Translations under genes and position numbers: made by a program
From: Nitrospira sp. MA-1
GTDB taxonomy: Bacteria; Nitrospirota; Nitrospiria; Nitrospirales; UBA8639
Reading direction: 5' to 3'
Length of the DNA: 64,000 nt
Assembly (NCBI GenBank): GCA_032139905.1
Contig: JAQJDB010000007.1
Span: 310,001 to 374,000 of the forward strand
Notes under the pieces: generated by a model
Told to the model about the DNA's origin: nothing
Databases searched by the model: none
Seen by the model: only the letters and a program-made list of their open reading frames with translations
In this document: positions 1 to 16,133 of the stretch, piece after piece
Layout: every line of letters starts with the position of its first letter
Position numbering within the stretch: the first letter of the stretch is position 1

Positions 1-179
1 TGAGCACGGGTAATCGCAACCTGGGCCACCCCGATGGGTGGGACACGGGTTTGAAGATGAAGATAATGATCCTGTGTCGTGAGTAAATAGTTCCACTATC
101 CGGGGTCGAGAATGTGGGGTACAGGGAAGGTCGGCAACGGAGGTCTAATGAGATGGAGGGGAAGACAATGCCGGATCGT

Positions 180-1094
180 TTACTCCTGCCAATCGAATCC
201 GGAGGCTCGTGCCAATTCCTGTGGGGTCTTGAGTCCGGTTAACCGTCGTTCTCCAATAATCCAGGTTGGGTATGTTTTGATGTCGGCCTTGAAGCAGGGG
301 GCGGTGAGACCGCTTCCTCTTCCGCCCGAACTGCATTCCACATATGGGAGCCGTTTAGCTGATGAGAGAAATGTGGCTTTCTGTTCCTGGCAACGAGGGC
401 ACCAATAGGCGCCATAAAACTTGGCGCCGGTGTCATTGAGATGGATGGCGAGTGCCTGCAGTTGCGGATCTTCAGGGCCTGCCGCCGGGTCAAACCAACC
501 TCCATAGTGCAGGTGGAGCCCGCCAACGATGAGTAGTCCAACCACGACTGCCTCTTTCAACGACTTCGTCCAATTGGGAGGACGTTGAATGAGAGCGAGA
601 CCCAGTATGGTCGTGATGATGGCAAATGAAGTCAGGCAATAGGGACAGGTGGCTTCGATCTCCATGACCGAGACGATGGTCAGGTAGGCGCTAACCGCGA
701 ATCCACTCATGGCCACGTAAATCAACGCCGATCCGCTACCGGACTGGCCGCGGCCGGACCACACCAACCCCGCGATTACCATATAGGTCACGAAACCCCA
801 CAAGGCCATGGGAATTCCCAGAAATGTAGCCCATCGGCTGCTCTGCACAATGTCACAGCCCGAACCCTCGCTGCAAAATGCCGGGTGAACCTCGAATGAT
901 GCCGTATAGGTCAGGTAGGCGGTTAACATCAGTCCGGCACCGGCCAGGATGATGAGGAGAAGATCGATTAGGGTTTTCGAACCTGAGTGCAGGGAAGCCG
1001 GAGTGTTCGATGTCTTTCTTGGAGCTTCGGTGTCGACTGAGTGTTTTTGTCTTTTTGATTTTGCCATAGCGCGACTCGTGAAAGAGTGTATCAT
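180..1094 (-). CDS. VKOR family protein fused to a thioredoxin-like domain
   Basis: A 304-residue membrane protein, probably a disulfide-generating quinone reductase. Vitamin K epoxide reductase homologues in bacteria reoxidise periplasmic thiol oxidases and pass electrons to quinones. Hydrophobic helices cover about residues 40-180. The VKOR loop cysteine pair is C74 and C80, and the active-site CPYC is at 150-153. The C-terminal part (about 205-304) is thioredoxin-like with a second redox pair, CPRC, at 222-225, so the electron donor and its oxidase are on one chain. The first ATG has an AGGA six bases upstream; an internal ATG at 1067 is possible but has no visible ribosome site. Family assignment is strong; the partner proteins are inferred. 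Confidence 0.9.
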   Translation of the reverse strand: MIHSFTSRAMAKSKRQKHSVDTEAPRKTSNTPASLHSGSKTLIDLLLIILAGAGLMLTAYLTYTASFEVHPAFCSEGSGCDIVQSSRWATFLGIPMALWGFVTYMVIAGLVWSGRGQSGSGSALIYVAMSGFAVSAYLTIVSVMEIEATCPYCLTSFAIITTILGLALIQRPPNWTKSLKEAVVVGLLIVGGLHLHYGGWFDPAAGPEDPQLQALAIHLNDTGAKFYGAYWCPRCQEQKATFLSSAKRLPYVECSSGGRGSGLTAPCFKADIKTYPTWIIGERRLTGLKTPQELARASGFDWQE

Positions 1095-1569
1095 GGGATT
1101 CCTGCCAATGAAATCCCGACAATCAATGTATCAGAAACTCCCGACCGTGGGTGAGACTTTTGATGAGGCCATGTCAGGCGGGTAGCCTCCAAAGATGAAT
1201 TGCTGAGCACGGGATCGAAATTTCAAACGGCTTTTGGTCCTTCAAGGTCTTGCTTGAAAAAGGGATAGGGTCGGGCCCTTGTCTGCCGTTATGTTTCAGG
1301 ATTGGATAGGGTGATAGTCTTTCGGTCATTGGTTCTGAGTGATTGGATGCCGGAGTAGGGACCTCTTAGGCTGAATATTTTTGACCCCTGATGAGCGGTG
1401 TTGAGGAGGGAAGAGGCGGGGTGCGCATAGGAGCAGGGTGAAGGTCTAGGAGGCTGCAGGAGTGCAATCCACCTTCACCCTACTCGTCCAAGGTTGGAGG
1501 CCGGTCCGTCCCTGGATGTTCTACGCTGTTCTGTTTTTCCTGGAGCCAGGAAAGGATGCATTGTTTTGG
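1095..1569. other. Intergenic gap without a recognised gene
   Basis: About 475 bases between two minus-strand genes. Open frames here are short, lack ribosome sites and show no protein-like composition. It probably holds the promoter of the VKOR gene, but no convincing -35/-10 pair stood out. Confidence 0.4.
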
Positions 1570-2121
1570 TTAATGAGTCGCATGCATTCGTTTCTCAAAA
1601 TATTCATCATACCGGTGCACAAAATCTTTGGATTCACCAAGGGGTAAATGGCACCCCCGGCAGGTCGTATAATCGACCTCCAAGCGATCGCCATTGGCAT
1701 TAAACGCTGAGTAAATCCAGTCGCCGTTTTTGAGATTCTCCGGAGCGCCTTTTCCCCATCCTGCTCCTTTTTGCATGACAAAAACCTTGGCCAATTCGGC
1801 TTTCACCAAATTTCCGTCTGCTCCTTTTTCCAAAGTTCCTTTGACATTTTTCTTGGCGTTGTAGATTGCCATCACCAATATGGATCCGTTGGTGAAGGCT
1901 TGACCTGGTTGGTTTCTGGCACTAATCGGGTTGACGTACAGGTCACGGACCGCATCGGGCTTTTGGACCCCTGATAAAAAGACGGGGAAGGATGTATAGT
2001 CTGAAGGAAATGCCAGCTCACCGTCTTTCGGCATGGCGTCAGATTGAACCGCAAGAGGCATGGTGAAAAAAGAACAGACTAGAACCACCAAGGCCGGAAA
2101 CGCGATACTCATTCTTTGCAT
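1570..2121 (-). CDS. Cytochrome P460 family c-type haem protein, exported
   Basis: A 183-residue protein with an N-terminal signal peptide (hydrophobic stretch at about residues 5-25) and one haem-binding motif CRGCH near the C-terminus (C154, C157, H158). Late placement of the haem motif in a small exported protein fits the cytochrome P460 / cytochrome c'-beta fold. Members oxidise hydroxylamine or bind NO in nitrifiers and methane oxidisers. The start at 2121 is chosen because a GGAGG lies about ten bases upstream; the open frame extends 22 codons further but without a site. A lysine cross-linked to haem defines true P460 activity and cannot be judged by reading alone. Confidence 0.82.
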   Translation of the reverse strand: MQRMSIAFPALVVLVCSFFTMPLAVQSDAMPKDGELAFPSDYTSFPVFLSGVQKPDAVRDLYVNPISARNQPGQAFTNGSILVMAIYNAKKNVKGTLEKGADGNLVKAELAKVFVMQKGAGWGKGAPENLKNGDWIYSAFNANGDRLEVDYTTCRGCHLPLGESKDFVHRYDEYFEKRMHATH

Positions 2122-2354
2122 GTTTCTTAATCCTCCTTCGCCGAACACTCGTTCGGTTGACGCAACCGGCAGATCGTGAAAAGCCAAAATTGGAAACGTC
2201 TAGACAGTGGCTCCAGCATACGATGGACCCAACAGTCCGTCTACAGATGGATACTGTCTTCTGCTACAGCGGGATGGTTTGGGATCTGTAGCCGAGTGGG
2301 TGATCGAGACGGTCTCTGTGTTATATCGATCTCTCATTTCCAGAACTTCTCGGG

Positions 2355-3101
2355 TTAGGGATATTGCGAAGGCACATGAAAATTTAATGGATTCATCGCC
2401 TGGTAGCTGACGTTCGTGCCCATTCCCGCATCGGGATCGACAAATCCATCGGCCATCCCGGTTTCGTGAAAGGTGAATGCAGACAAGGCGGTCGGGTCAC
2501 TATTGAATTGATTGACCCGTTTGGCGAATATCCGCCTGGCCGCTTCAATCCGGTCAATTTCTTCGTCCGTTCCGTATACGACAAATGGTGGATACGAACG
2601 GCAGGAATCGATTGCGGCGTAGAGGACCTGACGGAGATGCAAAAACGTATTCAGGGCGGCGTTTCCTAATTGTTGTTGTGATGCAGGGAGTGAGGCCATA
2701 AATTTGCTTCGCGCTATGCCTTCGGGGTGCTCTGCCGTAAAGATCACGGCATAATTCCGATCAAAGGCAATCGCGCCTTGGGTGACGATTCCATCGGTTA
2801 AATCCTGCAATTTGATGAAATGGACATACTGCTTGATTCTGGCTTCGCGAGATTCGGCAGGTATCCATTGTCCGGGAACCTTGCGAATGATGAGATCATG
2901 ATATTTTGCCACCTGAATCCTGATGGATCGGTCATGGCCGCTGCTTTGGCAGAGGGCAGGGCTGAAAGGGCGTGGGTCAAGTTGAAACGAAAGAATGGCT
3001 TGCTCACGGCCAAACCCCAGGCTTGGAAAGAACAAAAAGAGGACGATCAATAGGGTGAAACTGCTGGTTGGTCGGAAACATTTAAAGGAATAACTGTACA
3101 T
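2355..3101 (-). CDS. Exported protein of unknown function
   Basis: A 248-residue protein that I do not recognise. It opens with a hydrophobic stretch ending near FPSLGFG, consistent with a signal peptide. The mature part is mixed alpha/beta with no repeats and contains only scattered cysteines. The ATG at 3101 is preferred over the upstream TTG at 3131 because a GGAGG stands about ten bases before it. It lies between the P460-like cytochrome and a CSWxC small protein on the same strand and may be co-expressed with them. Confidence 0.6.
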   Translation of the reverse strand: MYSYSFKCFRPTSSFTLLIVLFLFFPSLGFGREQAILSFQLDPRPFSPALCQSSGHDRSIRIQVAKYHDLIIRKVPGQWIPAESREARIKQYVHFIKLQDLTDGIVTQGAIAFDRNYAVIFTAEHPEGIARSKFMASLPASQQQLGNAALNTFLHLRQVLYAAIDSCRSYPPFVVYGTDEEIDRIEAARRIFAKRVNQFNSDPTALSAFTFHETGMADGFVDPDAGMGTNVSYQAMNPLNFHVPSQYP

Positions 3102-3259
3102 GAGACAGTGCCTCCATTGAGTAGGTATCAAGGAATAAATTGAAAACCTGCTTGAGAGCCGGTGAGTGCTCCGGACTCTGAGGTTTGGTTCAGTTCTTCT
3201 GCGAACCCACGTCTTTCATCTTCATGAGTGAGAAAAACCAACGGGATCCAATGAGAAGC

Positions 3260-3571
3260 TTAGAAGAGGGAAAAGTGAGGCGGGGCACGAGAAGCACTGT
3301 GGTGATGTCGGAAGAGATCCGGTGCTGTAGGTTTGAAGAGGGGAAGAATGCCCAATAGAGAAAATGACCTGAGGATGTCAGCTGACAGCGTCTGAAGGCC
3401 TTGCCCGGCTTGGCACGTCCAGCTACACCAGGTGTTCCCATGAGTCTGCTGATCATGGTGCCCGTGGTGGATGTGGAGTGGAGCCGTATAGGCAAGGCCT
3501 CCAGTCACGCACAGGAAGCACATGCTGAGCATGAGAGCCGCAAACGATTGTGTGAGAGTGGTCTTCCTCAT
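3260..3571 (-). CDS. Small His-rich CSWxC/RAPP membrane protein, copy A
   Basis: A 103-residue protein, one of four divergent relatives in this window. Parts in order: an N-terminal hydrophobic segment, a His-rich stretch (IHHGHH), the motif CSWTC, a second hydrophobic segment, and a tail with SRAPP. The layout resembles small metal-associated proteins often annotated DUF2946, which commonly end in R-A/G-P-P; that link is from memory and untested. Function is unknown. Histidines followed by a cysteine pair suggest metal binding or redox sensing at the outer face of the inner membrane. An ATG at 3571 is preferred to the upstream TTG. Confidence 0.6.
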   Translation of the reverse strand: MRKTTLTQSFAALMLSMCFLCVTGGLAYTAPLHIHHGHHDQQTHGNTWCSWTCQAGQGLQTLSADILRSFSLLGILPLFKPTAPDLFRHHHSASRAPPHFSLF

Positions 3572-3682
3572 CTTGGGCCATTGCAATTGCAGCAATTTTG
3601 ATTATCTCCCCCGTCAAGCTAGCTGTTTCTTTGCAAGGTGTCTACGGACGGGTGCTCATCGATGCAACAGTTTATTCGTTGC

Positions 3683-3889
3683 TCATTGACATTCCGTGAT
3701 GGCAAAATCCCAATGGTTTTTGCGATTTTGTTGAATCAGCGCATCGATGGAATCCCGAAATATTCGTAAGCTGCCTTTTCCAATTTTCGTCGCTTTCAGA
3801 CGATCTTCTTCGACCCACCGATAGATGGTCCATCGGCTGACATTCAAGGTTTGAGCCGCTTCACCGACACGTAAAAGTTGTTTGTTCAT
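3683..3889 (-). CDS. Small helix-turn-helix DNA-binding protein (excisionase/MerR-like fold)
   Basis: A 68-residue protein whose first 50 residues match the winged helix-turn-helix of the excisionase/AlpA type (HTH_17): LLRVGEAAQTLNVSRWTIYRWVEE followed by a basic wing around KATKIGKGSLRIF is the typical layout. Such proteins act as small transcription regulators or as recombination directionality factors. No integrase is adjacent, so a regulator of the neighbouring TonB or CSWxC genes is more likely here. An AGGAG is visible just before the ATG. Confidence 0.75.
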   Translation of the reverse strand: MNKQLLRVGEAAQTLNVSRWTIYRWVEEDRLKATKIGKGSLRIFRDSIDALIQQNRKNHWDFAITECQ

Positions 3890-4125
3890 GGGTTCTCCTT
3901 CCGCAGCCTGTATGCTGTGTCATGCGATTACAGTCATGTGTTCGTGTCCGGTCACTACTATGAAAGATCCGGAACGAAATAGTTCCAACCGGGCTTCAAC
4001 ATGGTTACTTCTTGAGCGCAATACGTCGAATCAATGGAGAATGGAGATCATTGGACCATTCTGCTCACGACGAAACGATGCGCTTGGGATGTGGGTTCAG
4101 GGACGGATTCGTTGAAAATCCGAGT

Positions 4126-4488
4126 CTATCCATGAACCAAAAAACGAACGGGTGGGCCGCGAGGAGAGAATCTGTGTAAGGGCGAGGTTCGGGAAAAGAT
4201 GAATACCGGTGTCAGGGGCCAGAACATGATGGGAAAAAACAGCGCCGACCATTGAGCAATCGGACTGGCACCTGAGGCAATCTGGGCGACATGACAGGCC
4301 CACGAGCAAAGAAGAGAGAGGGATTGGGCCGGGTGGGAATGGTGAGAGGTGTTGGGATCAAGGGATCTTGAAGCACAGAACGCTCCCGCACCCAGGAGGA
4401 CGACGTGTAACCCAATGAGTAGCCCGATAAGGGCATGTGCCAATCGAGGCCCTACATTGGTGAATGGAGTTGCTGGGGTGTGGTTCAT
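4126..4488 (-). CDS. Small His-rich CSWxC/RGPP membrane protein, copy B
   Basis: A 120-residue relative of the three other CSWxC proteins in the window. It has an N-terminal transmembrane segment (about residues 15-38), a short His pair, CSWAC, a second hydrophobic segment and the tail PRGPP. The longer reading frame starting at 4530 would overlap exbD by 29 bases, so the internal ATG at 4488, just after the exbD stop, is preferred. It is immediately downstream of exbD on the same strand, which ties it to the TonB energising complex. Confidence 0.58.
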   Translation of the reverse strand: MNHTPATPFTNVGPRLAHALIGLLIGLHVVLLGAGAFCASRSLDPNTSHHSHPAQSLSLLCSWACHVAQIASGASPIAQWSALFFPIMFWPLTPVFIFSRTSPLHRFSPRGPPVRFLVHG

Positions 4489-4501
4489 GGTTTCCGGGGG
4501 A

Positions 4502-4912
4502 TTAAGATTCCGAATTGGGTTTTGTGGCAATTGCCATGTTGGAAATGCCGGCCAATCGAATGATGTCCATCACTTTTATGACCTGGCCATGGGAAACCTG
4601 TTCATCGGCGTTAATGACGACTGAAGGGTCCGAGTCGGTTTGCCGAAGGGTTGCCAGGCGGACTTCCAGTTCCGGTAGTCCAATGCGGTCCTTATTGTAG
4701 TACAGCATTCCTTCATGGGTCAGCGTGAGAGAGATTTGCTCAGGAACTTTATCCGTTGAGGAGTCGGCCGTCGGCAAATTGACCGGCATCCCATGTTGAA
4801 TGGTCATGGACAGCGTGGCGATCATAAAGAACACCAGGAGAAAGAACATCGTGTCGATCATCGGAATGATCTCGATGCGGGCCTTTTTCTGTGTGGCGGC
4901 AGGTAGTCTCAT
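4502..4912 (-). CDS. exbD: ExbD/TolR family proton-channel subunit
   Basis: A 136-residue inner-membrane protein. A single transmembrane helix follows the conserved IEIIPMIDTMFFLLVFFM stretch; its aspartate (D20) is the residue that carries protons in ExbD/TolR. The periplasmic domain shows the usual VVINADEQV segment. With ExbB it uses the proton motive force to drive TonB. It is encoded downstream of the TonB-dependent receptor and separated from exbB by about 4.5 kb, an unusual split, since exbB and exbD are normally adjacent. Confidence 0.9.
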   Translation of the reverse strand: MRLPAATQKKARIEIIPMIDTMFFLLVFFMIATLSMTIQHGMPVNLPTADSSTDKVPEQISLTLTHEGMLYYNKDRIGLPELEVRLATLRQTDSDPSVVINADEQVSHGQVIKVMDIIRLAGISNMAIATKPNSES

Positions 4913-5088
4913 GGAAATCTTAATGCCCGGTTTGTCGTTGCGAAAAGGTTAACAGATAATGTGAATGGAAATCTTTAAAATATCCGTCTTCAGTTGATAA
5001 GCCATTGGGTGTCACACCTAGAATAACGAACTAGGTGTGACAACCTCAATGTTCCGTTCCCTGAACGATTGTGTCCGGCCCGAACACA

Positions 5089-7317
5089 TTAAAACTTCCA
5101 TTCGATTCCACCAAACCCGCTGATCCCCTGACCGGGATTGAAGTATCGGCCCAGACTGTCATTGACCACGACAGCACCCGCATAAGTTTGATCGGACAGA
5201 TTTCGTCCTTCTGCGAAAAAGGACAGGTTCTTACTGTAATTATAGCCCGCCTTCAGATTGACGAGGAAATAGGCCGAGTTCTTGGCGGTATTTTCGCTGT
5301 TTACGTAATATCCGGCGAGGACCCATTCGAAATTCGGGGCGATAAAAAATCCGGCCGGATGGTCATAGCGTACCTCCCCGGCAAGCTGGTGCTCGGGCGC
5401 CCCGGGAACCCGGTTGCCGTCCTTGGCCACCAAAAATTTTTGAGTTCCATTGTCTCCTCCGCCGTACACATCATCGGTGAATTTAAATAAGGACCAGGTA
5501 TAGGCGGTACGAACGGAGATCGTGTCGCTTTGGTTTTTAGGGCCCTGAACCAGCAATCCGTTGGCTACCACCATACTGCCTCCTGCTTCAATGCCTGTGT
5601 GTCGCGTCCCTTTGGCATTTTGATAGGTCGGTTGGTTATTGATATTAAACGTCAGGATTTCCTTTTGCATTTCCAGGTTATAGAAGGTGAGGTCCCAGGT
5701 ATAGCGGTTATCCGCTGTGGAGCCTCGTGTGCCAATTTCAAACTGCCAGGCCCGTTGCGCATCCAGGTTGATGAAGGGGGTGGTGGGGACCGTGCCGTCC
5801 GGGTTGATCGATGAGGTCAATTCGACATTGATGGGGGGTTCGTACCCACGGCTGACGTTTCCGTAAATTTGCGAGGTCCCGGTGGTTTGGTACACGAACC
5901 CCATCTTTGGGATAAGAGCATTGAAATGACGTACGCCGGTATCGCTGGTATTTAAATCTCCCGTAAAGGGACTGTAGAGTTGGTTCCTGCCCTGCCGGAT
6001 GCTGTATTCCCAGCGTCCGCCTGCAATGACAAGGAAATCATCGGTTACGTTGAATTGGTCTTCCAGGTAGGTGCTGAGATTGGTCGTCTCCAACGTGAGG
6101 TTTTGGGTCTGTATTCCGCGTTTGCCCAAATTGTTGACAAAACGCCGTTGATTGGTGTCTCCGTATCGTGGTTGATTGCCGATGAGGAACTTGTTCTCAT
6201 GTCCGAAAATGGGATGTGAATTGACGTATCGAATTTCCCCTCCCACATTATAGTTATCCTGGACGATCGTTTGGAAAATAGGATGATCTACGTATTGGTA
6301 GGAATAATAGGGGATAATCTCAAAAAACTGGTGGGATGCGAATTCATTGCGATAGGCGGCCCCGACCCGGATATAACTATAGTACCGTCCCCATTTGCAG
6401 GCCTGGTTTGGCCCGCAGGAAAACGGATTGATTCCCCCCAAGGTGTTAGCCTGCCTTCGATCGGAATCCAATTGCGCTTGGGTAATCGACCCTGGGAGTG
6501 CTTCTGACACCTCGGCTCCCAGGATATAGGCGCGCACTTCCTGGTGATCGCCGATCTGAAATCCGAAGTTGGCATTTAACCGTCCGCGTGCCTGCTGGCT
6601 GTTATCCTGAAAGCCGTCCTGATGATTGCCCGAAGCGCTGATATAGTAATCGGCGGTGGTGTCCATGGTGCCGACCTTAAAGGGTTTGGTGACCTGGCCG
6701 CTGGAGACCTGTCCTGAATAGAGTCCGAAACTCCCAGCCAATCCACGCGCTTGGTAGAGGGAGGCGTTGTAGCCCGTGCGGGGCACAAAATTGATGGCTC
6801 CTCCCAGGGTATTGGCTCCATACCGGAGGGCGTTGGACCCTTTATACACCTCGATACGCTCATAGGCCATCAAGTCGATGGATTCAAAATCGGAGAATCC
6901 GTCCGCATCGCCGAAATAGATCCCGTTGATGAGAATATTAATACCACGATGATGAAAGTTGTTCCTGAGGGAAGTCCCCCGGATTTGGAATTGTCCTTCG
7001 TCGGCACCGAATCGGGATTGGAATCGCACGCCTGGAGCGAATTGAAGGACGTCGGTTAAATTGAACGCACGGGATTCCTCGATTTCTTTTTCCTCGATCA
7101 GGATGGTGCTGCTGGGCCGGCGAGCGAGTTCTTCCTTGACTACATCGATGTTTTCGATTCGTTTGGCTTCTACTGTCACAGTTGGAAGTGTTTCAATTAT
7201 TTCTTCAGCTATACCCAGAGAGGGCTCGATTAGGAGAAAGCTAATTGCCGCGCAAAACTGCAAGGCTAGTTGCATGTTTTTGATTTTCAAGTACTTTAGG
7301 TCGATCATGGATTTCAC
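5089..7317 (-). CDS. TonB-dependent outer-membrane receptor
   Basis: A 742-residue outer-membrane barrel with signal peptide, a probable TonB box around ETLPTVTVEA, a plug domain (about residues 65-170, with the characteristic QIRGTS and NTLGGAINFVPRTG segments) and a long barrel ending in an aromatic residue (GGIEWKF). Internal segments resemble the FecA/Fiu-type receptors used for metal chelates, but the ligand cannot be read from sequence. The annotated start is a GTG with AGGAAAGGA close upstream; an ATG three codons later (7308) is equally possible. Flanked by CSWxC copy C upstream and exbD downstream. Confidence 0.92.
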   Translation of the reverse strand: MKSMIDLKYLKIKNMQLALQFCAAISFLLIEPSLGIAEEIIETLPTVTVEAKRIENIDVVKEELARRPSSTILIEEKEIEESRAFNLTDVLQFAPGVRFQSRFGADEGQFQIRGTSLRNNFHHRGINILINGIYFGDADGFSDFESIDLMAYERIEVYKGSNALRYGANTLGGAINFVPRTGYNASLYQARGLAGSFGLYSGQVSSGQVTKPFKVGTMDTTADYYISASGNHQDGFQDNSQQARGRLNANFGFQIGDHQEVRAYILGAEVSEALPGSITQAQLDSDRRQANTLGGINPFSCGPNQACKWGRYYSYIRVGAAYRNEFASHQFFEIIPYYSYQYVDHPIFQTIVQDNYNVGGEIRYVNSHPIFGHENKFLIGNQPRYGDTNQRRFVNNLGKRGIQTQNLTLETTNLSTYLEDQFNVTDDFLVIAGGRWEYSIRQGRNQLYSPFTGDLNTSDTGVRHFNALIPKMGFVYQTTGTSQIYGNVSRGYEPPINVELTSSINPDGTVPTTPFINLDAQRAWQFEIGTRGSTADNRYTWDLTFYNLEMQKEILTFNINNQPTYQNAKGTRHTGIEAGGSMVVANGLLVQGPKNQSDTISVRTAYTWSLFKFTDDVYGGGDNGTQKFLVAKDGNRVPGAPEHQLAGEVRYDHPAGFFIAPNFEWVLAGYYVNSENTAKNSAYFLVNLKAGYNYSKNLSFFAEGRNLSDQTYAGAVVVNDSLGRYFNPGQGISGFGGIEWKF

Positions 7318-7416
7318 GTATCCTTTCCTGCGCGCATGAAGGGATTCAGGTCAGGCTGAACAGGGTTCTGCCCTTATGGCTGCAAAAAAATATTAAGTTG
7401 GAATCGTGGAACCTGA

Positions 7417-7761
7417 TTAAACCGGAGGGCCGCGAGCGAGAGACCGACTCAGCGTTGCCTGTGCAGGAATGACGGAAAAAAAGAAAACGAATCCGACGAT
7501 TAATAGGGTGTGGGTAAGAAGTGCGTTGTGGGTCGTGTCGGCCGAGTTCGCTTTCGAACTGACCTGACAGGCCCATGAGCAAATTGAGGAATGGGAAGTG
7601 GTGTTTTTGGAATGATGATTGATTGGAGAATGTTGGATCTCATGAGATGCCACGCAATACGTGGCTATGCTCGCCAGAGCGAGATACGCCACCGCGAAGA
7701 TGACTGAAGGGAGTGTAAGGCGGCGCGGCATCATGGGAGGGCTCGATGGCTTGTCAGGCAT
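7417..7761 (-). CDS. Small His-rich CSWxC/RGPP membrane protein, copy C
   Basis: A 114-residue member of the local CSWxC family. A hydrophobic segment (about residues 17-38) is followed by scattered histidines (SHEIQHSPINHHS), the motif CSWAC, a second hydrophobic segment and the tail ARGPPV at the very C-terminus. It stands immediately upstream of the TonB-dependent receptor and downstream of the amidohydrolase, all on one strand with short gaps. Function unknown. Confidence 0.6.
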   Translation of the reverse strand: MPDKPSSPPMMPRRLTLPSVIFAVAYLALASIATYCVASHEIQHSPINHHSKNTTSHSSICSWACQVSSKANSADTTHNALLTHTLLIVGFVFFFSVIPAQATLSRSLARGPPV

Positions 7762-7815
7762 GTTGAAGGGTTTATGGCTTGTGGTTTAAAAATCCTGTCC
7801 ATTGTAGATCGAAGA

Positions 7816-9288
7816 TTAATGCGCATGTTTGGCTGTGGCATCTGTATGGTGAGTTTCGCTCCATGACAGAGGTGACCCTTGCTTCATACGAAGGATAATG
7901 TTTTGAACCTGTTCGAAGTCTTCAAGCGGATTGCCCTGTAAAACAAGAAAACTGGCTTCATATCCCTCGTCCAATCGTCCAATTTTCCTTGAAGGAAAAA
8001 TAGTTTGAGGAGTGGTCTCACTCCACATTTTCAGTAAGGTCAGATTGTCAAAAATTCCCATGTGATGAAGGTGAAGTGCTTCCGCCAGGGAAGTTTCCGC
8101 ATGGTCGCTTCCGATGGCAATGGTGACCCCGGCCTGATGCAGTAACTTGAGGTTTTCCATCTGAATTCTCTTGGCGACCTCAAGGACATTTTTCACGGGT
8201 GGCGGTTGGTGCTCTTGGGAATTTGCAGGAGAGTGGGGATTCGCGTCCGTCTTGGTATGATGTCCTGCCGGGTGAAAGTGCTCGGCGACGGTCGTCGTGG
8301 CAATCACGGTCCGGTGTGTGGCCGCCAGTTGGGCATCTTCTTGAGTTAATCGCACGGCTGACTCTTGGTCGGGCGAAGGAAGGAACCACCCTGGGAGATG
8401 GGCGATCTCATCCACATGATTCTTGATGGCCGTTCGAAAGTCATCAACTGTTTCAATATGTGCGGAAACACGCAGGTTTTGCTGGTGCGCACGCGTGACA
8501 ATCGGCTCGATAAGCTGCGGATTCAGGCCGCTCCGAAACCCATGAGTGGCGGAGCGGGTGCCGTGTTCAAAATGTTTCGAGTCGGCAAGATAGAGCTTAA
8601 TGAAATCCGGCTTGGTCGCCATGATGGCCGGCCAGTAGGTTTCCACATCCTTCAGAGAGGAAAGAGCAAAGTAAGCTCGCCCGTTGAACCATCCTTTTTC
8701 ACGTTTGCCAATGACCGGTTCATAACGATGGGTGCGAAGTATGTCTTCGTATAGAGCAATGGGATGACCGCGTTTCCCGGTCAGACCGGCATGGGCAAAG
8801 ATCGCATCAATGGTCTCCGGTGTGTTGAGTTTTCCGTCGATTTGCTCAACAAACTCGGGAATGTCGGTGGTATTTTTTACATAAAAAATACCATCCCGGA
8901 CATAATGATTGATGACCTGATCGATGTTCCAGGCACCTTCGACGTTGTGGGTGTGGGCTTCGCCAAACGGTGGCACGACAAACCCGCCTTTCAGGTCAAT
9001 GGTCTGTTCAACAACCTTGGGCCGGAGGCGGGTAAGTGAGCCATCGACCGCATACCAGGTATCCCTGGTGAAGCCTTGTCCATCAAACCATTGGCCATTG
9101 ATAAATTCATAGGTTTTGGCAGTCTTCCGGTTGTCGAAAGATTCGATATTGGTGGTTGGTGGGGAATGAGTGGGAATGCTACATCCCATCAATCCCAGTC
9201 CACTAATGAGTAACAGGATGGTCAAAGACAACAGGGTGTATGGTGTCTGTTGACTCTGAATCCATTTTCTTTCGCCCTGAATAATCAT
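7816..9288 (-). CDS. Amidohydrolase-family lipoprotein
   Basis: A 490-residue metal-dependent hydrolase. The GEAHTHN motif supplies the first metal ligands of the amidohydrolase barrel, and a late GSDHAE segment supplies the catalytic aspartate. Before the barrel there is a hydrophobic stretch ending in LMGC, a lipobox, so it is probably lipid-anchored in the periplasm. For that reason the ATG at 9288 is chosen; longer starts would place the signal deep inside the protein and overlap exbB. A His-rich insertion (HFHPAGHH and following) is unusual. It lies between exbB and the receptor, suggesting that it processes the imported ligand. The substrate is unknown. Confidence 0.8.
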   Translation of the reverse strand: MIIQGERKWIQSQQTPYTLLSLTILLLISGLGLMGCSIPTHSPPTTNIESFDNRKTAKTYEFINGQWFDGQGFTRDTWYAVDGSLTRLRPKVVEQTIDLKGGFVVPPFGEAHTHNVEGAWNIDQVINHYVRDGIFYVKNTTDIPEFVEQIDGKLNTPETIDAIFAHAGLTGKRGHPIALYEDILRTHRYEPVIGKREKGWFNGRAYFALSSLKDVETYWPAIMATKPDFIKLYLADSKHFEHGTRSATHGFRSGLNPQLIEPIVTRAHQQNLRVSAHIETVDDFRTAIKNHVDEIAHLPGWFLPSPDQESAVRLTQEDAQLAATHRTVIATTTVAEHFHPAGHHTKTDANPHSPANSQEHQPPPVKNVLEVAKRIQMENLKLLHQAGVTIAIGSDHAETSLAEALHLHHMGIFDNLTLLKMWSETTPQTIFPSRKIGRLDEGYEASFLVLQGNPLEDFEQVQNIILRMKQGSPLSWSETHHTDATAKHAH

Positions 9289-9397
9289 GCCTGGAGGCTC
9301 CAAGCATGCTAAATGAATGAACCTTCTGAGTTTGGCTACGATTTCTCTGCTTTGTTGCTGTGGGTTGTCCATGCCGTTCGTAAGCTGAAGGTGGGAA

Positions 9398-9985
9398 TTA
9401 GGAATGTCCCAGGAACGACTGAAGTTTGGTGGCATATTGTTCAATGCGCTCGGTTTCCCGTTCGACCATGGAAAGGAAAAAGTTGTAGGGAATGAGCGTG
9501 ATGACGGCAACCCCAATTCCTGCAGCGGTGCAAATGAGTGCTTCAGCCACACCACCTGTGACCGCGTGGGGATTTCCTAGTCCTGATTCGGACATGATGT
9601 CGAAGGAATCGATCATTCCAATAATGGTTCCTAGCAGTCCCAGTAAGGGACCCAACGTAATGATCGTATCCAGAACGGATAATCCCCGCTTTAATCGGGC
9701 CAGCTCGCCGATTCCAGCTGCTTCCATGGCTTTGTCCGGTTGTTGGTCTCGATGAAATATGCCTGCCGCAAGCACGCGGAGTGTGGGGCTCTGGCGTTGT
9801 TCGGCTAATGCCAGCGCATCCGTCCATTTTCCCTGTTCAACCAGTTTGATCATCCGGTCCGCCAGGCGGCTGAAGCGCAACGATCGGAATTGGAATCCAC
9901 GTTCGATGCTGACGGTCAGAGCTAATAATGAGCAGCCCAGGATGGGGATCATCATCCATCCGCCACCCATCAGTAATTGAATCAT
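9398..9985 (-). CDS. exbB: ExbB/TolQ/MotA family proton-channel subunit
   Basis: A 195-residue membrane protein with the family layout: an N-terminal helix, a cytoplasmic loop, then two helices with the conserved glycine-rich GPLLGLLGTIIGMIDSF segment and a final VITLIPYNFFLSMVERETERIE stretch. It forms the pentameric channel around ExbD. It is 27 bases downstream of tonB on the same strand and clearly in the same operon. Confidence 0.92.
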   Translation of the reverse strand: MIQLLMGGGWMMIPILGCSLLALTVSIERGFQFRSLRFSRLADRMIKLVEQGKWTDALALAEQRQSPTLRVLAAGIFHRDQQPDKAMEAAGIGELARLKRGLSVLDTIITLGPLLGLLGTIIGMIDSFDIMSESGLGNPHAVTGGVAEALICTAAGIGVAVITLIPYNFFLSMVERETERIEQYATKLQSFLGHS

Positions 9986-10012
9986 GCCTCTACTCCCTTC
10001 TTCTCGCGTCGC

Positions 10013-10903
10013 TTAACTGTTCAGGTCAAATTTAATGGGAATGTCGACCCATTTGGCTATGGGGATGTTCCCGTCTTTCGCCGGCTGAAATTTCCAGTTT
10101 TTAATGGCTTCCTGGGCAGCCAGATCTAACGCCTCATGACCGCAGCTCTTTCGAATTTCCACCTGGCTGGGAGCGCCATCGGTGTTAATCAATGTTCGCA
10201 CAATGACCGTCCCCTCCCACCCAGACTCACGCGCCACACGAGGATAGAGTGGTTTGGTCGAGGCGACAATTCTCGGCTTGGACGTTGAGGATCCGGCTGC
10301 CATCGCCGGCGGAGTTTTTAATGCCGGACGAGCCGACGGGTTTGGCGGGGGAGGCAGTGTGTGCTGCGCTATTGGTTGACGATTGTTCATGTGCATGGGT
10401 GTCCTGGCAGGGGGTTGTTCCCGCTGCGGTGTCGCCGGTGAAAGCTGAGGTCTTTGCCGGTGTTGAGGAGGAACGGCCATTTTCATCATCTGACGACTCT
10501 GTATGGCCTGCACCGTTCGTGTGTCTTTGAGCATGGGCTTTGCCTGAGGAAGAGGCGGCGGAGCCAGGGGTTTGGAAGGTGTCGGTTTAATTGATGCCTG
10601 CATCGGTGTCGCCGGCATGGCTGGCGTAGGTTGGGTCCGGGGAGACGGTGGCGTGGGTTGTGCAAAATCCGGTTGGGGTGGTGTCAGAGGTTTCGTGGGC
10701 GGTTGTGGGGTGGGACTGATTTCCTGGAGAGCCGGAACCAATGTCACCTGGACTGTTGGGGTGAGGTCTTTAACTTCAGGGGGACTTGGATAATACGTCA
10801 GGGCGGCAAGAATTCCTGCATGAAGAATAACGCTTCCCAAGGCGCTCAGGAGAAAAATTCGATTATTGAAATTGGAAGAGGAATCTTCAAACGTGGAGTT
10901 CAC
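10013..10903 (-). CDS. tonB: TonB energy-transducing protein
   Basis: A 296-residue TonB. An N-terminal membrane anchor (about residues 15-38, with a VILHAGILAAL segment like the SxxxH anchor of TonB) leads to a very proline-rich periplasmic linker (about 50-200). The C-terminal TonB domain holds the KPLYPRVARESGWEGTVIV motif and ends in IPIKFDLNS. It transmits energy from ExbB-ExbD to the receptor. Its start overlaps the end of the TPR gene by four bases, indicating translational coupling. Confidence 0.92.
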   Translation of the reverse strand: MNSTFEDSSSNFNNRIFLLSALGSVILHAGILAALTYYPSPPEVKDLTPTVQVTLVPALQEISPTPQPPTKPLTPPQPDFAQPTPPSPRTQPTPAMPATPMQASIKPTPSKPLAPPPLPQAKPMLKDTRTVQAIQSRQMMKMAVPPQHRQRPQLSPATPQREQPPARTPMHMNNRQPIAQHTLPPPPNPSARPALKTPPAMAAGSSTSKPRIVASTKPLYPRVARESGWEGTVIVRTLINTDGAPSQVEIRKSCGHEALDLAAQEAIKNWKFQPAKDGNIPIAKWVDIPIKFDLNS

Positions 10904-11952
10904 GATTTGCTCCGTTGTAATAATGTTTGAATTCGTTCGTCCTGGCCCCCAAGCTTCAAGAATTCTTCGTAGTGCTTGAGAGCTTTTTGGGGGGCATTGC
11001 GATGAAATTCATACAACATGCCAAGATTGTAGTGGGCTTCGGCCAATTGATCATTCAAAGATAAGGCTGTTTGATATTCTTCTTCAGCTTGATCAATTTG
11101 GGACAGGGCCGCATACACGACTCCCAGATTGACATGAGCTTCCGCATTGTTTTTATCGAGAGCGGTGACGTGTTCAAATGCTTGTGCCGCTTCCTTGAAA
11201 CCTTCCTTTTGCCGGTACAGGATGCCTAAATTGAAATAGGCGCTGGCTAAATTATTGTTTAATTTTACGGCATGTTGGTAGGCCTGAATGGCGTTGTCCA
11301 CGTGATCAGATTGTTGAGCGAGTGATCCGGCCATTAACCAACCATTGACATACGTGGGATGGAGAGAGACCAGTTGGTCGACGTAACGTTGGGCTTCATC
11401 GGTCTGTTGCTCCTGGGCCAGCCAAAACGCGATGCCGTATAACGAATCGACGCGATGAGGCTCGAGTTCCAAGACGGCCTGATGGGCCTTAATGGCTTTC
11501 TGCGCTTGTTGTTGCTGATCAAACAACGCCGCCAACGCAATGCGGGCTTCCGTAAACTTGGGATAGGCCTTCAAGGCAAGATTGAATGATTGCTCGGCTT
11601 TTGGAAATTGGGACTGATGCTGGTAGATGGATCCAAGATCCACATAGGCTTGAGCAAATTTGGGATAGGCCTCCACCGCCCGTTGTAACTCCATGATGGC
11701 TTTATCCGTTTTTTCAAGATTGTTGAAGATTAACCCCAACAGATGGTGCGCCTCAGCGTATCCCGGGTACAAGGCCAGCGCACGCTCTAAGGAAGCAATG
11801 GCCGAAGTCCATTGTTGTTGTTCATAGGATGAAAAGGCTTGGGAAAGAAGGTCCTGTGCTTCTCCAGCCTGACTTGAGGGGCTGCCCAGGCCGATATGGG
11901 TGACGAGAAGGAAAAACGCGATGAGTCTGATTTTCGAGAAAGGAGGTATCAT
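10900..11952 (-). CDS. Exported TPR-repeat protein
   Basis: A 350-residue protein with a signal peptide and about nine tetratricopeptide repeats covering nearly all of the mature chain (recurring A-x-x-x-L-G-x-x-Y signatures, for example AYVDLGSIYQHQ, AYFNLGILYRQK and AHVNLGVVYAAL). TPR arrays scaffold protein complexes. Its coding sequence overlaps tonB by four bases, so it is expressed with the TonB system and may organise it in the periplasm. The partner is inferred from position only. Confidence 0.85.
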   Translation of the reverse strand: MIPPFSKIRLIAFFLLVTHIGLGSPSSQAGEAQDLLSQAFSSYEQQQWTSAIASLERALALYPGYAEAHHLLGLIFNNLEKTDKAIMELQRAVEAYPKFAQAYVDLGSIYQHQSQFPKAEQSFNLALKAYPKFTEARIALAALFDQQQQAQKAIKAHQAVLELEPHRVDSLYGIAFWLAQEQQTDEAQRYVDQLVSLHPTYVNGWLMAGSLAQQSDHVDNAIQAYQHAVKLNNNLASAYFNLGILYRQKEGFKEAAQAFEHVTALDKNNAEAHVNLGVVYAALSQIDQAEEEYQTALSLNDQLAEAHYNLGMLYEFHRNAPQKALKHYEEFLKLGGQDERIQTLLQRSKS

Positions 11953-11989
11953 GGGCTAACCTTATTGATATGGGCAATATTCCCCAGGT

Positions 11990-12631
11990 TTATTGAAGCA
12001 AATCAAATCGAATGGGCAAATCCACGGTGGACGCAACGGTAAATTCTCCATTTTTTGCTGGTTCAAAGGACCAGCCCTTTACCGATTGAACGGCACTTTC
12101 GTCCAGGAGAGAAAATCCCGAACTTTCCTTTACTGTGGCACTTGTGACCGTGCCATCGGAACTTATGTGCGTCCGCAGGACCACCTTCCCATGCCACCCC
12201 TGTTCTCTGGCCATTCTGGGATAGAGGGGGCGTTCGGTTTTCAGGGGTTTGACGCTTTTCAATCGCCCGCGTGTTGTTCCGATCCGGTCTAGGAGTATTC
12301 GGGGTATGGCGGGCTGTGGCAGATTATCCATATCAAGATCGGGAGCCCCAAGGGTATGAAATGTCGTTGGCGGCCATGGGCGGTCAATCGTGGGCAACGG
12401 AAATGAAAATGTTCTACTGGTTTTTGTCACCGTTGTCCCGGTCACTTCAATGACGTCTAAGGTTTCTATGGGCTCTGTGCTCTCACCGAGGTTTTCCGCC
12501 AAAGAAGTTTGATTGGAGGCCAAAGTGCACCATAGAGATAAAACAATGAAAAACATCAGATTGTGTTGATGTACCAAAAGACCTTTTCCCATTACGAAAT
12601 ATGACGACCGGTCGTGTTGAATTATATCCAC
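11990..12631 (-). CDS. Second protein with a TonB C-terminal domain
   Basis: A 213-residue protein ending in a TonB domain clearly related to the neighbouring TonB (ERPLYPRMAREQGWHGKVVLRT against KPLYPRVARESGWEGTVIVRT). It lacks the long proline-rich linker. Its hydrophobic N-terminus looks like a cleavable signal rather than an anchor, followed by ETLDVIEVTGT, which resembles the TonB-box region of receptors. It could be a periplasmic accessory that competes with or extends TonB. The start is uncertain: the annotated one is GTG, with ATGs at 12592 and 12556 also possible and no strong ribosome site at any. Confidence 0.75.
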   Translation of the reverse strand: MDIIQHDRSSYFVMGKGLLVHQHNLMFFIVLSLWCTLASNQTSLAENLGESTEPIETLDVIEVTGTTVTKTSRTFSFPLPTIDRPWPPTTFHTLGAPDLDMDNLPQPAIPRILLDRIGTTRGRLKSVKPLKTERPLYPRMAREQGWHGKVVLRTHISSDGTVTSATVKESSGFSLLDESAVQSVKGWSFEPAKNGEFTVASTVDLPIRFDLLQ

Positions 12632-12846
12632 TGGTTGTTTTTCTAGGTTGCGGATAACGTCAAATCAAGCCAGCTGGCATCTTTGACGTTAAGAAACTCA
12701 CTACCCCCTTAAAGAGGTTGTCCCTTGTTCGGTTTCTCCTGTCAGGAAGATGTCGGCCGTCCCCTCCTCTGACCATGCGTTGTGAGGCCGTTCCCGAACT
12801 CAACTCGTTATGGTGAAAGCGGTTTGGGAACCAGGCTTCGGATGAT

Positions 12847-13140
12847 TTATCGAGGAGGAGCTCTGGTTGGAAGAAAATGAGTGGAAATGAGAGTAGGGAC
12901 TTTAGGAATCGGATATTCCATAATGGCAAGGAGTTGGAAGCTAGGGGAAATTTCCTGGTTATCCCCGGAAATTGTTTGTGCCGCCGCGCACATCCAGGAA
13001 CAGATTGCCGTGCTATGCATGGCTGATGTGTGGTGATGGGTATGTTCCGTAATGTGCGAAGCGTAGGTCCGATGCATGCTCCCCATGATGAGGAAGAGCA
13101 TCAGAATGAGTACAACGGTGAGGCTTTTTCGATATGGCAT
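12847..13140 (-). CDS. Small His-rich CSWxC/RAPP membrane protein, copy D
   Basis: A 97-residue member of the local CSWxC family: hydrophobic N-terminus (about residues 7-25), a His-rich stretch (SHITEHTHHHTSAMH), CSWMC and the tail TRAPPR. It is the first gene of the minus-strand run, about 215 bases upstream of the second TonB-domain gene. Function unknown; a metal-responsive role is a guess from the His and Cys content. Confidence 0.58.
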   Translation of the reverse strand: MPYRKSLTVVLILMLFLIMGSMHRTYASHITEHTHHHTSAMHSTAICSWMCAAAQTISGDNQEISPSFQLLAIMEYPIPKVPTLISTHFLPTRAPPR

Positions 13141-13298
13141 GTTATCTACAGACCAGAAATGTTCAAAACCCTGAATAATAAAGGAGGCTTATGCTAGGGA
13201 AACCCGAAAGATTCTGTCAAGCAAATGCCTGTCCTTCGTTTCGTGTCGTCGTCTGTCACAGGATGGATCTTTGCGATCATGAATCCTTTTCCTGTGAG

Positions 13299-13326
13299 TT
13301 GATTCCCACCGGTAATTCGGTATACT
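13299..13326 (+). promoter_or_regulatory. Likely sigma-70 promoter of secA
   Basis: TTGATT at 13299-13304 and TATACT at 13321-13326 are separated by 16 bases, close to the housekeeping consensus, and lie about 87 bases ahead of the secA start codon in the correct direction. Confidence 0.6.
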
Positions 13327-13412
13327 AGGGCAACTGTATGGTTTGAAAGGTGTGTCTAGCCCTCATTCCCTATCCATTGTGATTTTCTCCCACCCTATTT
13401 CGTAAGGTCGAT

Positions 13413-16133
13413 ATGTTTGTTCGTCTATTAAATATTCTCTTTGGTAGCAAAAATGATCGGGAGCTCAAGCGGCTCAGACCACAAGTGATTCGAGCCAATG
13501 AATTTGAGGCTTCCTTGCAACCCCTTGATGACGAGGGATTAGCGGCAAAAACCGCAATATTTAAAAAAAGACTGGAAGCTGGCGAGTCTTTGGATGATTT
13601 GCTCCCTGAGGCGTTTGCCGTATGCCGTGAAATGTCCAAGCGCCAGCTTGGCATGCGCCATTTTGATGTACAGTTGTTAGGGGGAATGGTCTTGCACCAG
13701 GGACGTATTGCCGAAATGCGCACAGGTGAAGGAAAAACTCTTGTCGCCACTCTCCCGGTCTATTTGAATGCGTTGGAGGGAAAAGGGGTTCATTTGGTGA
13801 CAGTGAACGATTATCTGGCAAAGCGCGATGCCCAGTGGATGGGACCGCTCTACCATGGTTTAGGCTTATCCGTCGGGATCATTCAACATGACGCCTCCTT
13901 TTTATTTGATCCAACCTATGATGCCCCGGATAAACGGTTGCAATTTCTTCGGCCATGTTCTCGACGTGAGGCTTATGGGGCCGATATTACCTACGGGACC
14001 AATAATGAATTTGGGTTCGATTATTTAAGGGATAATCTCGTGGTCACGGACTTGAGCCAGGGGGTTCAGCGGGAATTGAATTTTGCCATTGTCGATGAAG
14101 TTGACAGCATTCTCATCGACGAAGCTCGGACGCCGCTGATTATTTCCGGACCCGCCGAACAAAGCACAGACCTTTATTTCCAGGTGGATCGGATCATCCC
14201 TCACCTCAAACGGGAAGAGGATTATACGATTGAAGAGAAAACAAAAACGGTATCTCTGACCGATGAAGGCAATGCGCATGTTGAGAAACTGTTGGGAGTC
14301 GATAATCTCTATGACTTGAAGCACCTGAGTTTGGTGCATCACGTTATTAAAGCTCTCCAAGCCCATGTGCTCTATCATCGGGATGTGGAGTATGTGGTGA
14401 AAGATGGCGAGGTGATGATTGTTGATGAGTTTACCGGTCGATTAATGCCGGGACGGCGATGGAGTGATGGACTCCATCAGGCTGTGGAGGCGAAAGAAGG
14501 GGTGAAGATTGCCAACGAAAATCAAACTCTGGCATCCGTGACGTTCCAGAATTATTTTCGTATGTATAACAAACTGGCGGGCATGACCGGAACCGCGGAC
14601 ACCGAAGCTGCGGAATTCGCAAAAATTTACAACCTGGAAGTGAATGTGGTGCCCACCAATAGCAAAATGATTCGAATCGATAATCCGGATGTGGTCTATC
14701 GGACCGAAAAGGAGAAATTCGAGGCCATTGCCGACGAGATCAAAGAATATCATGAGAAGGGACAACCGGTTCTTATTGGCACGATTTCTATCGAAAAATC
14801 TGAACGTCTTGCGGCCTTATTGAAGCATCGAGGCGTAAAACACCATGTCTTGAATGCCAAGTTTCATGAAAAAGAAGCAGAAATTATCGCCCAGGCCGGG
14901 CAAAAGGGTTCGGTGACCATCGCCACGAACATGGCCGGCCGCGGTACCGATATTTTGTTGGGAGGCAATGCTGAAGCGCTCTTCAAACAACAGGTTGTTT
15001 ATCGGGGGGAAGATCTGACAGAAGAGGAGCAAAACAAAGCGTATGCCACAATTAAAGCCGCCTGTGATGAGAATAAGAAAGAAGTACTGGCAGCCGGAGG
15101 GTTGCACATAGTCGGGACTGAACGTCATGAGAGCCGCCGGATCGACAATCAGCTGAGAGGACGGGCGGGACGGCAGGGAGATCCTGGCTCCTCGCGCTTT
15201 TTCCTTTCCTTGGAAGATGACTTGCTTCGCATTTTTGCGTCCGAACGGGTTTCAAACCTCATGCTCAAGCTCGGCATGGAAGAAGGTGTGCCCATTGAGC
15301 ACAGGATGGTCACCAAATCCATTGAAAATGCGCAGAAAAAGGTCGAAGGCCATAATTTTGAAATTCGCAAGCATCTTCTTGAATATGATGATGTGATGAG
15401 TAAGCAGCGAGAGGTGATATATAAACATCGGCAGAATGTATTACATGCGACCGATGTGACCGAAGACGTTCTGGGTATGATTGAGGAAGTGGGCGAACGC
15501 TTGGTCGATGTCTATTGCCCTGAGGAGCAGTACGCCGAGGAATGGAACATTGCCGGATTAGCGGAATCAGTGCAGGGACAATTTGGCGTTGATGTGATCC
15601 AAGCGGATGAGATCAAAGACGTCGGTCGAGACGCGCTCAAGGAAGAAATTCCAGAAAAGTTAAAGCAGGCTTACCGAGACAAAGTCCAAGGACTCATCCA
15701 GGAGCATGGGGCCACCGAGGATTTAGTGCATTATGTGGAACGCACGATTCTGCTTCAAATGATTGACCATCATTGGAAAGATCACTTGTGGGGAATGGAC
15801 CAGTTGAAAGATGGAATCGGCCTGCGCGGGTATGGGCAAAAGGACCCCCTCGCAGAATATAAGCGTGAAGGCTATGACATGTTTGCCGGAATGATGGAGC
15901 GGATTAAAAATGATACCTTGGAACGGCTCTTTAAATTTCAACTGGTTCGCGGTGAACGGCCTGAGCCTGAGCGGGAAGCGCCTCGCCCGACACAATTAAA
16001 TCTGAACCGGGGAGGTGAGTCCGCTTCCGCTCCCCAGCAACGCACCGTTCAACGTGCCGAAGAGAAAGTTGGTCGAAACGATCCCTGCCCATGTGGGAGC
16101 GGGAAAAAATACAAAAAATGCCATGGGACCTGA
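13413..16133 (+). CDS. secA: Preprotein translocase ATPase SecA
   Basis: A 906-residue motor that pushes unfolded proteins through SecYEG using ATP. Visible landmarks are the Walker A box MRTGEGKTL at about 102-110, the DEAD-like [17 protein letters not shown], the TWITNAGRGTD-type segment [18 protein letters not shown], the [20 protein letters not shown] motif and a C-terminal zinc-binding tail with [14 protein letters not shown]. Length is normal for the family. It is monocistronic as far as can be seen, with a good promoter upstream. Confidence 0.98.

Follow-up and report, generated by a model that had tools for sequence, protein, structure and literature searches.

The window, a stretch of 64,000 nucleotides (nt) from Nitrospira sp. 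MA-1 (contig JAQJDB010000007.1, positions 310,001 to 374,000), contains on its minus strand a gene array for a TonB system into which four small His/Cys-rich open reading frames (ORFs) are interspersed. We refer to these ORFs as leaders 1 to 4, in view of the interpretation argued below that they act on the expression of the genes behind them. In minus-strand order the array runs leader 4, TonB2, a TPR protein, TonB1, ExbB, an amidohydrolase, leader 3, a TonB-dependent receptor, ExbD, leader 2, an HTH_17 protein, leader 1, the secreted protein p2355 and a cytochrome P460 (Table 1); a VKOR gene adjoins the locus. Since leader 2 starts 13 nt past the exbD stop codon and leader 3 comes after the amidohydrolase gene, both appear to be internal to the array.

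All four copies share a hydrophobic N-terminus, a His cluster, the motif CSWxC and R[AG]PP shortly before the stop codon, with 5, 7, 1 and 1 residues between RxPP and the stop in copies 1, 2, 3 and 4, respectively. When all six reading frames of the window were searched for C-x3-C-x(38-48)-R[AGS]PP close to a stop, exactly the four ORFs listed in a first-pass annotation (which did not name the strand) were returned, compared with a mean of 0.0 matches in 100 length-matched first-order Markov sequences. Purifying selection, on which that annotation depended, was found for every frame, the ratio of nonsynonymous to synonymous substitution rates (dN/dS) against orthologues being 0.05-0.48. The last Cys precedes the Arg by 41 residues in copies 1 and 4, which belong to a class A, and by 44 residues in copies 2 and 3, which belong to a class B. 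The gap to the next gene amounts to 215 nt for copy 4, 99 nt for copy 3, 236 nt for copy 2 and approximately 158 nt for copy 1. Copy 1 may instead start at TTG 3595, which has a better Shine-Dalgarno sequence than the ATG at 3571, and copy 3 may start at 7731. The Pfam and NCBIfam models gave no name to any of the four.

Table 1. Features of the leader-containing array, in minus-strand order (positions in the window).
Feature	Position	Strand	Remarks
Promoter-like site TTGACA-18-TAGCAT	13191..13220	-	upstream of copy 4
Leader copy 4, class A	12847..13140	-	CSWMC-41-RAPP-R-stop, 97 amino acids (aa); first of array
C>G bubble, putative rut site, 3' half of copy 4	12873..12950	-	C 0.35, G 0.08
TonB-like protein (TonB2; tonB_Cterm)	11990..12631	-	start uncertain; next after leader 4
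TPR protein	10900..11952	-	
TonB (TonB1)	10013..10903	-	
ExbB/TolQ-like	9398..9985	-	
Amidohydrolase ORF	7816..9555	-	as listed overlaps exbB
Leader copy 3, class B	7417..7761	-	CSWAC-44-RGPP-V-stop, 114 aa
C>G bubble in copy 3	7574..7651	-	C 0.33, G 0.08
TonB-dependent receptor	5089..7317	-	YncD/PqqU are the nearest solved relatives
ExbD	4502..4912	-	named from its own sequence; orthologues in homologous loci
Leader copy 2, class B	4126..4488	-	CSWAC-44-RGPP, 120 aa
C>G bubble in copy 2	4301..4378	-	C 0.44, G 0.12; second peak near the RGPP codons
HTH_17 DNA-binding protein, small	3683..3889	-	68 aa; mostly 63-96% identical in homologous loci
Conserved block TGTTGCATCGATGAG ... GTAGACA-17-TAGCTT, putative promoter and operator	3610..3670	-	upstream of copy 1
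Leader copy 1, class A	3260..3571	-	CSWTC-41-RAPP, 103 aa
C>G bubble, 3' end of copy 1	3264..3341	-	C 0.44, G 0.12
p2355, secreted protein, putative target of copy 1	2355..3131	-	ATG with Shine-Dalgarno near 3101
Cytochrome P460	1570..2187	-	p2355 is its usual neighbour

For an extended view of the family, a profile was built from the four window copies, and all genome-wide counts rest on profile searches. Six members were found in the source genome, four of them being those of the window; the fifth (C7:298579) is located approximately 11 kb past the low-coordinate end of the window before another receptor gene, the sixth (C1:115892) before a gene for an outer-membrane channel. Members occur in 56 of 59 relatives and, in a phylum-wide sample, in all 87 Nitrospirales genomes (completeness of at least 85%) and in 9 of the 13 sampled genomes from elsewhere in the class, with no members in the rest of the phylum in this sample. 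Individual genomes carry up to ten members; one locus (L055; G043:C12:420000-439000), from a different family within the order, harbors six leaders inside 14 kb. Apparent in-frame stops in some homologues were read as the profile overrunning the ends of the leader ORFs, because the same leaders are intact in a six-frame scan. A plasmid match, the single one obtained by tblastn with a Nitrospira leader, was judged to be due to chance after its ORFs had been read, and a scan of genome contigs with the receptor as query returned just four loci.

Together with the window, 20 plus 60 fetched loci yielded 141 distinct leaders from Nitrospirales. Arg precedes [AGS]PP in all 141 without exception; the x of RxPP is Ala in 82, Gly in 58 and Ser in one, and the stop codon follows after 1-12 residues. 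The Cys-to-Arg distance is 41, 42, 43 or 44 residues in 92, 20, 2 and 27 leaders, respectively. The mean identity of the linker is only ~18% at spacing 41 (as fractions, 0.15 at 42 and 0.22 at 44); therefore, the distance is kept and the sequence is not. An alignment of all leaders proved too divergent for a pattern scan. The first-pass annotation had considered the His, Cys and RPP elements to be the only conserved ones; these elements are confirmed, and the fixed spacing has to be added to them. In class A (spacing 41), His residues at positions -5 (100%) and -10 (96%) complete a putative ligand set H-x4-H-x4-C-x-W-x-C, and 46 of 47 class B leaders (spacing 42-44) contain an additional N-terminal Cys. 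The split between both classes corresponds to one change on the leader tree. Every collected leader has CxxxC, and a scan of the leader loci for the variant CXXC gave no match.

Directly behind the leaders, a same-strand ORF starts within 300 nt in 120 of the 141 cases. Class A precedes genes for outer-membrane channels, p2355, TonB or ResA, and class B those for TonB receptors or the HTH_17 protein; all 21 leaders of the main cluster of TonB-dependent receptors belong to class B (spacing 42-44). By cluster, the downstream genes comprise 48 FapF/COG4313-like channels, 30 p2355 proteins (some counted past an intervening small HTH_17 gene), 21 TonB receptors, 10 TonB2 and 8 ResA-like proteins. 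Leader lineage follows the target gene, the leader tree requiring 29 changes of target label compared with 83.5 after shuffling, a difference to which near-copies contribute. On their upstream side, 54 of the leaders start at most 150 nt from a same-strand gene and 45 follow a divergent gene. In four loci (L041, L045, L046 and L050), the window-type receptor, copy 3 and the amidohydrolase are jointly absent between ExbB and ExbD. Only 2 of the 11 TonB receptor genes of the source genome carry a leader, and the leaders are therefore selective. No leader was found that belongs to a further receptor gene (L038:11241-13574), situated between this genome's two leader loci.

A specificity of the small proteins to this TonB uptake system, as originally proposed, is not supported by these data: 48 of the 141 precede a FapF/COG4313-like channel gene and others ResA-like or unassigned genes. 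Homologues scattered without TonB genes, the finding that the proposal itself had named as refuting it, do occur, among them the C1 copy, for which no TonB gene was recognised among its mapped neighbours. The predicted channel family itself (e.g., L039:6523-7701, with homologues in L057, L114 and L116) follows 48 class-A leaders; one subgroup shows a mature N-terminus CGxxxCF, which could itself bind metal.

Besides the encoded peptide, the leader RNA carries a signature of its own. The median of C minus G over the last 150 nt is 0.153 in leaders versus -0.007 in other genes. Amino acids account for part of this skew; beyond their demand, synonymous choice adds 0.042, an excess of this kind being present in 94% of the leaders (p 1e-22) and absent in the controls. 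This synonymous excess peaks in the last 20 codons with values up to 0.070, and because part of the skew is synonymous, the signal points to the RNA. Each window copy has a corresponding C>G bubble (Table 1), in line with what a Rho site of the CruR type would show.

Upstream of leader 4, TTGACA-18-TAGCAT represents the top-scoring promoter-like site of the region (10 of 12 matches), the total number of such sites not exceeding chance, and it is kept upstream of copy-4 orthologues in related as well as more distant loci. The block upstream of leader 1 (consensus TGT(T/A)GCA...GTAGACA-17-TAnnnT) is conserved in 18 aligned loci, distant genera included; TGTTGCATCGATGAG has one exact match in the window, at 3655-3669, with matches at three mismatches being at chance level. 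Leader 1 probably also has its own promoter. No known Rfam RNA or riboswitch was matched in positions 1-14000 of the window, and terminator-like sites between the array segments were not more frequent than in shuffled sequences.

Regarding the remaining genes of the array, the true start of the amidohydrolase is probably at ~9400 or lower, its orthologues being shorter. The HTH_17 protein is encoded behind leader 2 or close to the receptor gene, shows a conservation that is unusual for a small regulator, and is possibly the regulator of the locus. The protein p2355 is conserved in 15 aligned homologues, with the motifs PFSPxxC, CRPYPP and SYQAMNPLNFYVP, and had no Pfam, NCBIfam or clear PDB-fold match, structure comparison included.

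On the basis of these sequence features, the four copies are very probably cis-acting nascent-chain arrest leaders, i.e., upstream ORFs of the kind known from CruR, CutF and SilD. In the mechanism that we infer, the leader N-terminus would be exported with its His/Cys ligand set, while the ribosome would stall at R[AG]PP, 41-44 residues after the Cys and 1-12 codons before the stop. Metal bound to the emerging Cys/His set may then alter the stall, copper being the probable main ligand. When metal is scarce, the ribosome stalled on the last codons of the leader would mask a Rho-loading region there that is rich in C and poor in G, as in Bordetella CruR, and the downstream import gene would be transcribed. 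When metal is bound, the ribosome would finish and leave, Rho would load and transcription would end before the next gene. A Rho-type output of this kind is slightly favored, and the account as a whole, metal-sensing arrest leaders with CruR-type output, appears likely to us. The leaders of one locus may in this way separately gate TonB/ExbB, the receptor, the HTH_17 regulator and p2355/P460.

A metal-binding or redox role had been proposed for the four proteins from the start, and the link to metal or redox is likely to hold. RxPP at fixed spacing, the genes immediately downstream and the C-over-G skew point to the cis-acting leader, however, and not to the periplasmic protein acting on its own that this role implied. 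Proteins of such a kind, binding metal or serving as metallochaperones for TonB-dependent uptake, would match the hydrophobic N-terminus, the His/Cys set and the purifying selection; they are nevertheless very improbable, as conservation is highest at the Cys pair and the C-terminal RxPP, held at a fixed distance across a divergent linker, many copies precede genes other than TonB genes and the C-over-G skew is partly synonymous. A different readout, in which metal promotes the stall and the stalled ribosome opens a hairpin hiding the ribosome-binding site of the next gene, as for CutF, would agree with the CxxxC shared with CutF and with the profile link to SilD, which belongs to the CutF-like network. 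Start regions behind leaders, however, have a predicted pairing of 0.57 versus 0.55 in other genes (p 0.35), which speaks against such a hairpin, although the test is crude, as are the start calls. In addition, an import system would be induced by its own substrate, and the window gaps of ~100-240 nt are long for a hairpin model, making this readout distinctly unlikely.

Arrest leaders could also sense the thiol/disulfide redox state or another metal (Ni, Co, Zn) instead of copper. This is rather unlikely, even though ResA-like genes follow eight leaders and VKOR adjoins the locus, His-only CutF-like proteins accompany HupE/UreJ (Ni/Co) genes (PMC9973294), and a thioredoxin-linked arrest peptide of Streptomyces has a conserved Cys pair (PMC12992588): class A conserves His in addition to both Cys, which sets it apart from a switch based on a disulfide alone, and Cys-containing CutF-like proteins are mostly linked to copper. 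Several points weigh against metal-sensing leaders of the CruR type. None of the downstream genes in the window is a known copper gene; the receptor is closest to PqqU/YncD and was not matched by OprC-type models, and VKOR together with the ResA-like targets elsewhere would fit thiol-redox sensing as well. Purifying selection would equally be expected if the proteins had a function of their own. As the profile used for fetching the loci contains the tail, variants without RxPP are possibly under-sampled, and the C-over-G statistics are uncorrected for shared ancestry; as the sequences are related, their p-values overstate independence. Finally, the leaders have CxxxC in place of the CXXC of CruR, and against the gathering cut-off of PF11162 (DUF2946), 23.7 bits, the best window copy scores 13.8 bits.

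The family often lies before outer-membrane import genes. If the account is confirmed, it is mainly at the ribosome that metal entry would be controlled in nitrite oxidisers. As a more tentative extension, Nitrospirales may possess a genome-wide metal regulon built on nascent-chain sensors, with two classes that differ in ligand set and spacing gating segments of one locus in series and several leaders inside the array; one transcript would then carry several independent metal checkpoints, a reading on which the probable separate promoter of leader 1 bears. The fixed distance of 41-44 residues combined with a free linker provides naturally varied material for studying how a metal bound outside the tunnel influences a stall, and four leaders of two classes in one locus allow an internal comparison.

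Metal-sensing arrest leaders have been described mainly in Proteobacteria and Bacteroidota, with other phyla being minor or few in two surveys. CutF of Rhodobacter capsulatus resembles the Nitrospira leaders as a small exported protein encoded immediately upstream of its target, with CxxxC and a proline-rich C-terminus ~45 residues away. The window copies have 97-120 aa, PP at most 9 residues from the end and gaps of 99-236 nt, against limits of <150 aa, the last 15 residues and a same-strand gene <1000 nt downstream for CutF-like proteins (PMC9973294); where these proteins require an N-terminal signal peptide, the leaders show a hydrophobic N-terminus, read directly from the sequence, which may represent one. 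Unlike them, CutF has a multicopper oxidase gene behind it and shows copper induction through a hairpin, for which the Nitrospira leaders gave no signal. ApdA and ApdP, arrest peptides of the Sec/YidC class, share the R[AG]PP core near the C-terminus but are encoded upstream of protein-localisation genes, and the part of the source consulted describes no His/Cys sensor in them.

The SilD/CusD-type leaders of copper/silver efflux operons (e.g., in Cupriavidus metallidurans) are likewise small, with CxxxC, a hydrophobic N-terminus and the target gene directly behind. Our profile matched the SilD family with an hhalign probability of 92.5% (E 5e-7 over 100 columns, a single comparison), and among the genes of the C. 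metallidurans megaplasmid it scored best with a CxxxC/RAPP gene that is followed by an OEP gene. RAPP is present in one C. metallidurans copy and in the C. pauculus copy, whereas several relatives lack RxPP and SilD proteins continue up to an ILHC[CS]F end, which is conserved. They target efflux genes of the TolC family instead of import genes; no TolC/CusC-type efflux gene follows the window leaders, the next genes being TonB, the receptor, HTH_17 and p2355.

A probable parallel in function is CruR of Bordetella pertussis (bp2923, DUF2946), with CXXC, 45 residues and RAPP, where Rho terminates transcription before a TonB receptor gene in the presence of copper and the rut site was mapped to a C>G bubble. 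RAPP and RGPP are reported to support arrest across more contexts than any other core, and RAPP is where CruR stalls in vitro (PMC12992588). The initial suggestion of a DUF2946-type tail pointed in the right direction, while Pfam membership does not follow by the curated cut-off: none of 59 genomes had a PF11162 match above it, and among 73 family members 12 matched weakly (best E 1.3e-4). A profile comparison with two DUF2946 sequences aligned in the RAPP tail alone and is uninformative, not evidence against kinship. The leader family probably works like CruR without being filed as DUF2946. Both share the C-terminal RAPP, a Cys pair upstream of it (by 41-44 residues, as tightly conserved as the ~45 of CruR, within 1-2, but 1-4 shorter), a C>G bubble at the leader 3' end and the position before a TonB-dependent receptor gene; in Pandoraea, a DUF2946 gene precedes that of a TonB-dependent copper receptor in the same order as leader 3. 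Apart from the Cys motif, the Nitrospira leaders differ by the conserved His of class A and by occurring several per locus, often inside the array, whereas published descriptions place CruR genes at the head of operons. New here are the phylum, the ligand set, the number of leaders per locus and their placement inside arrays.

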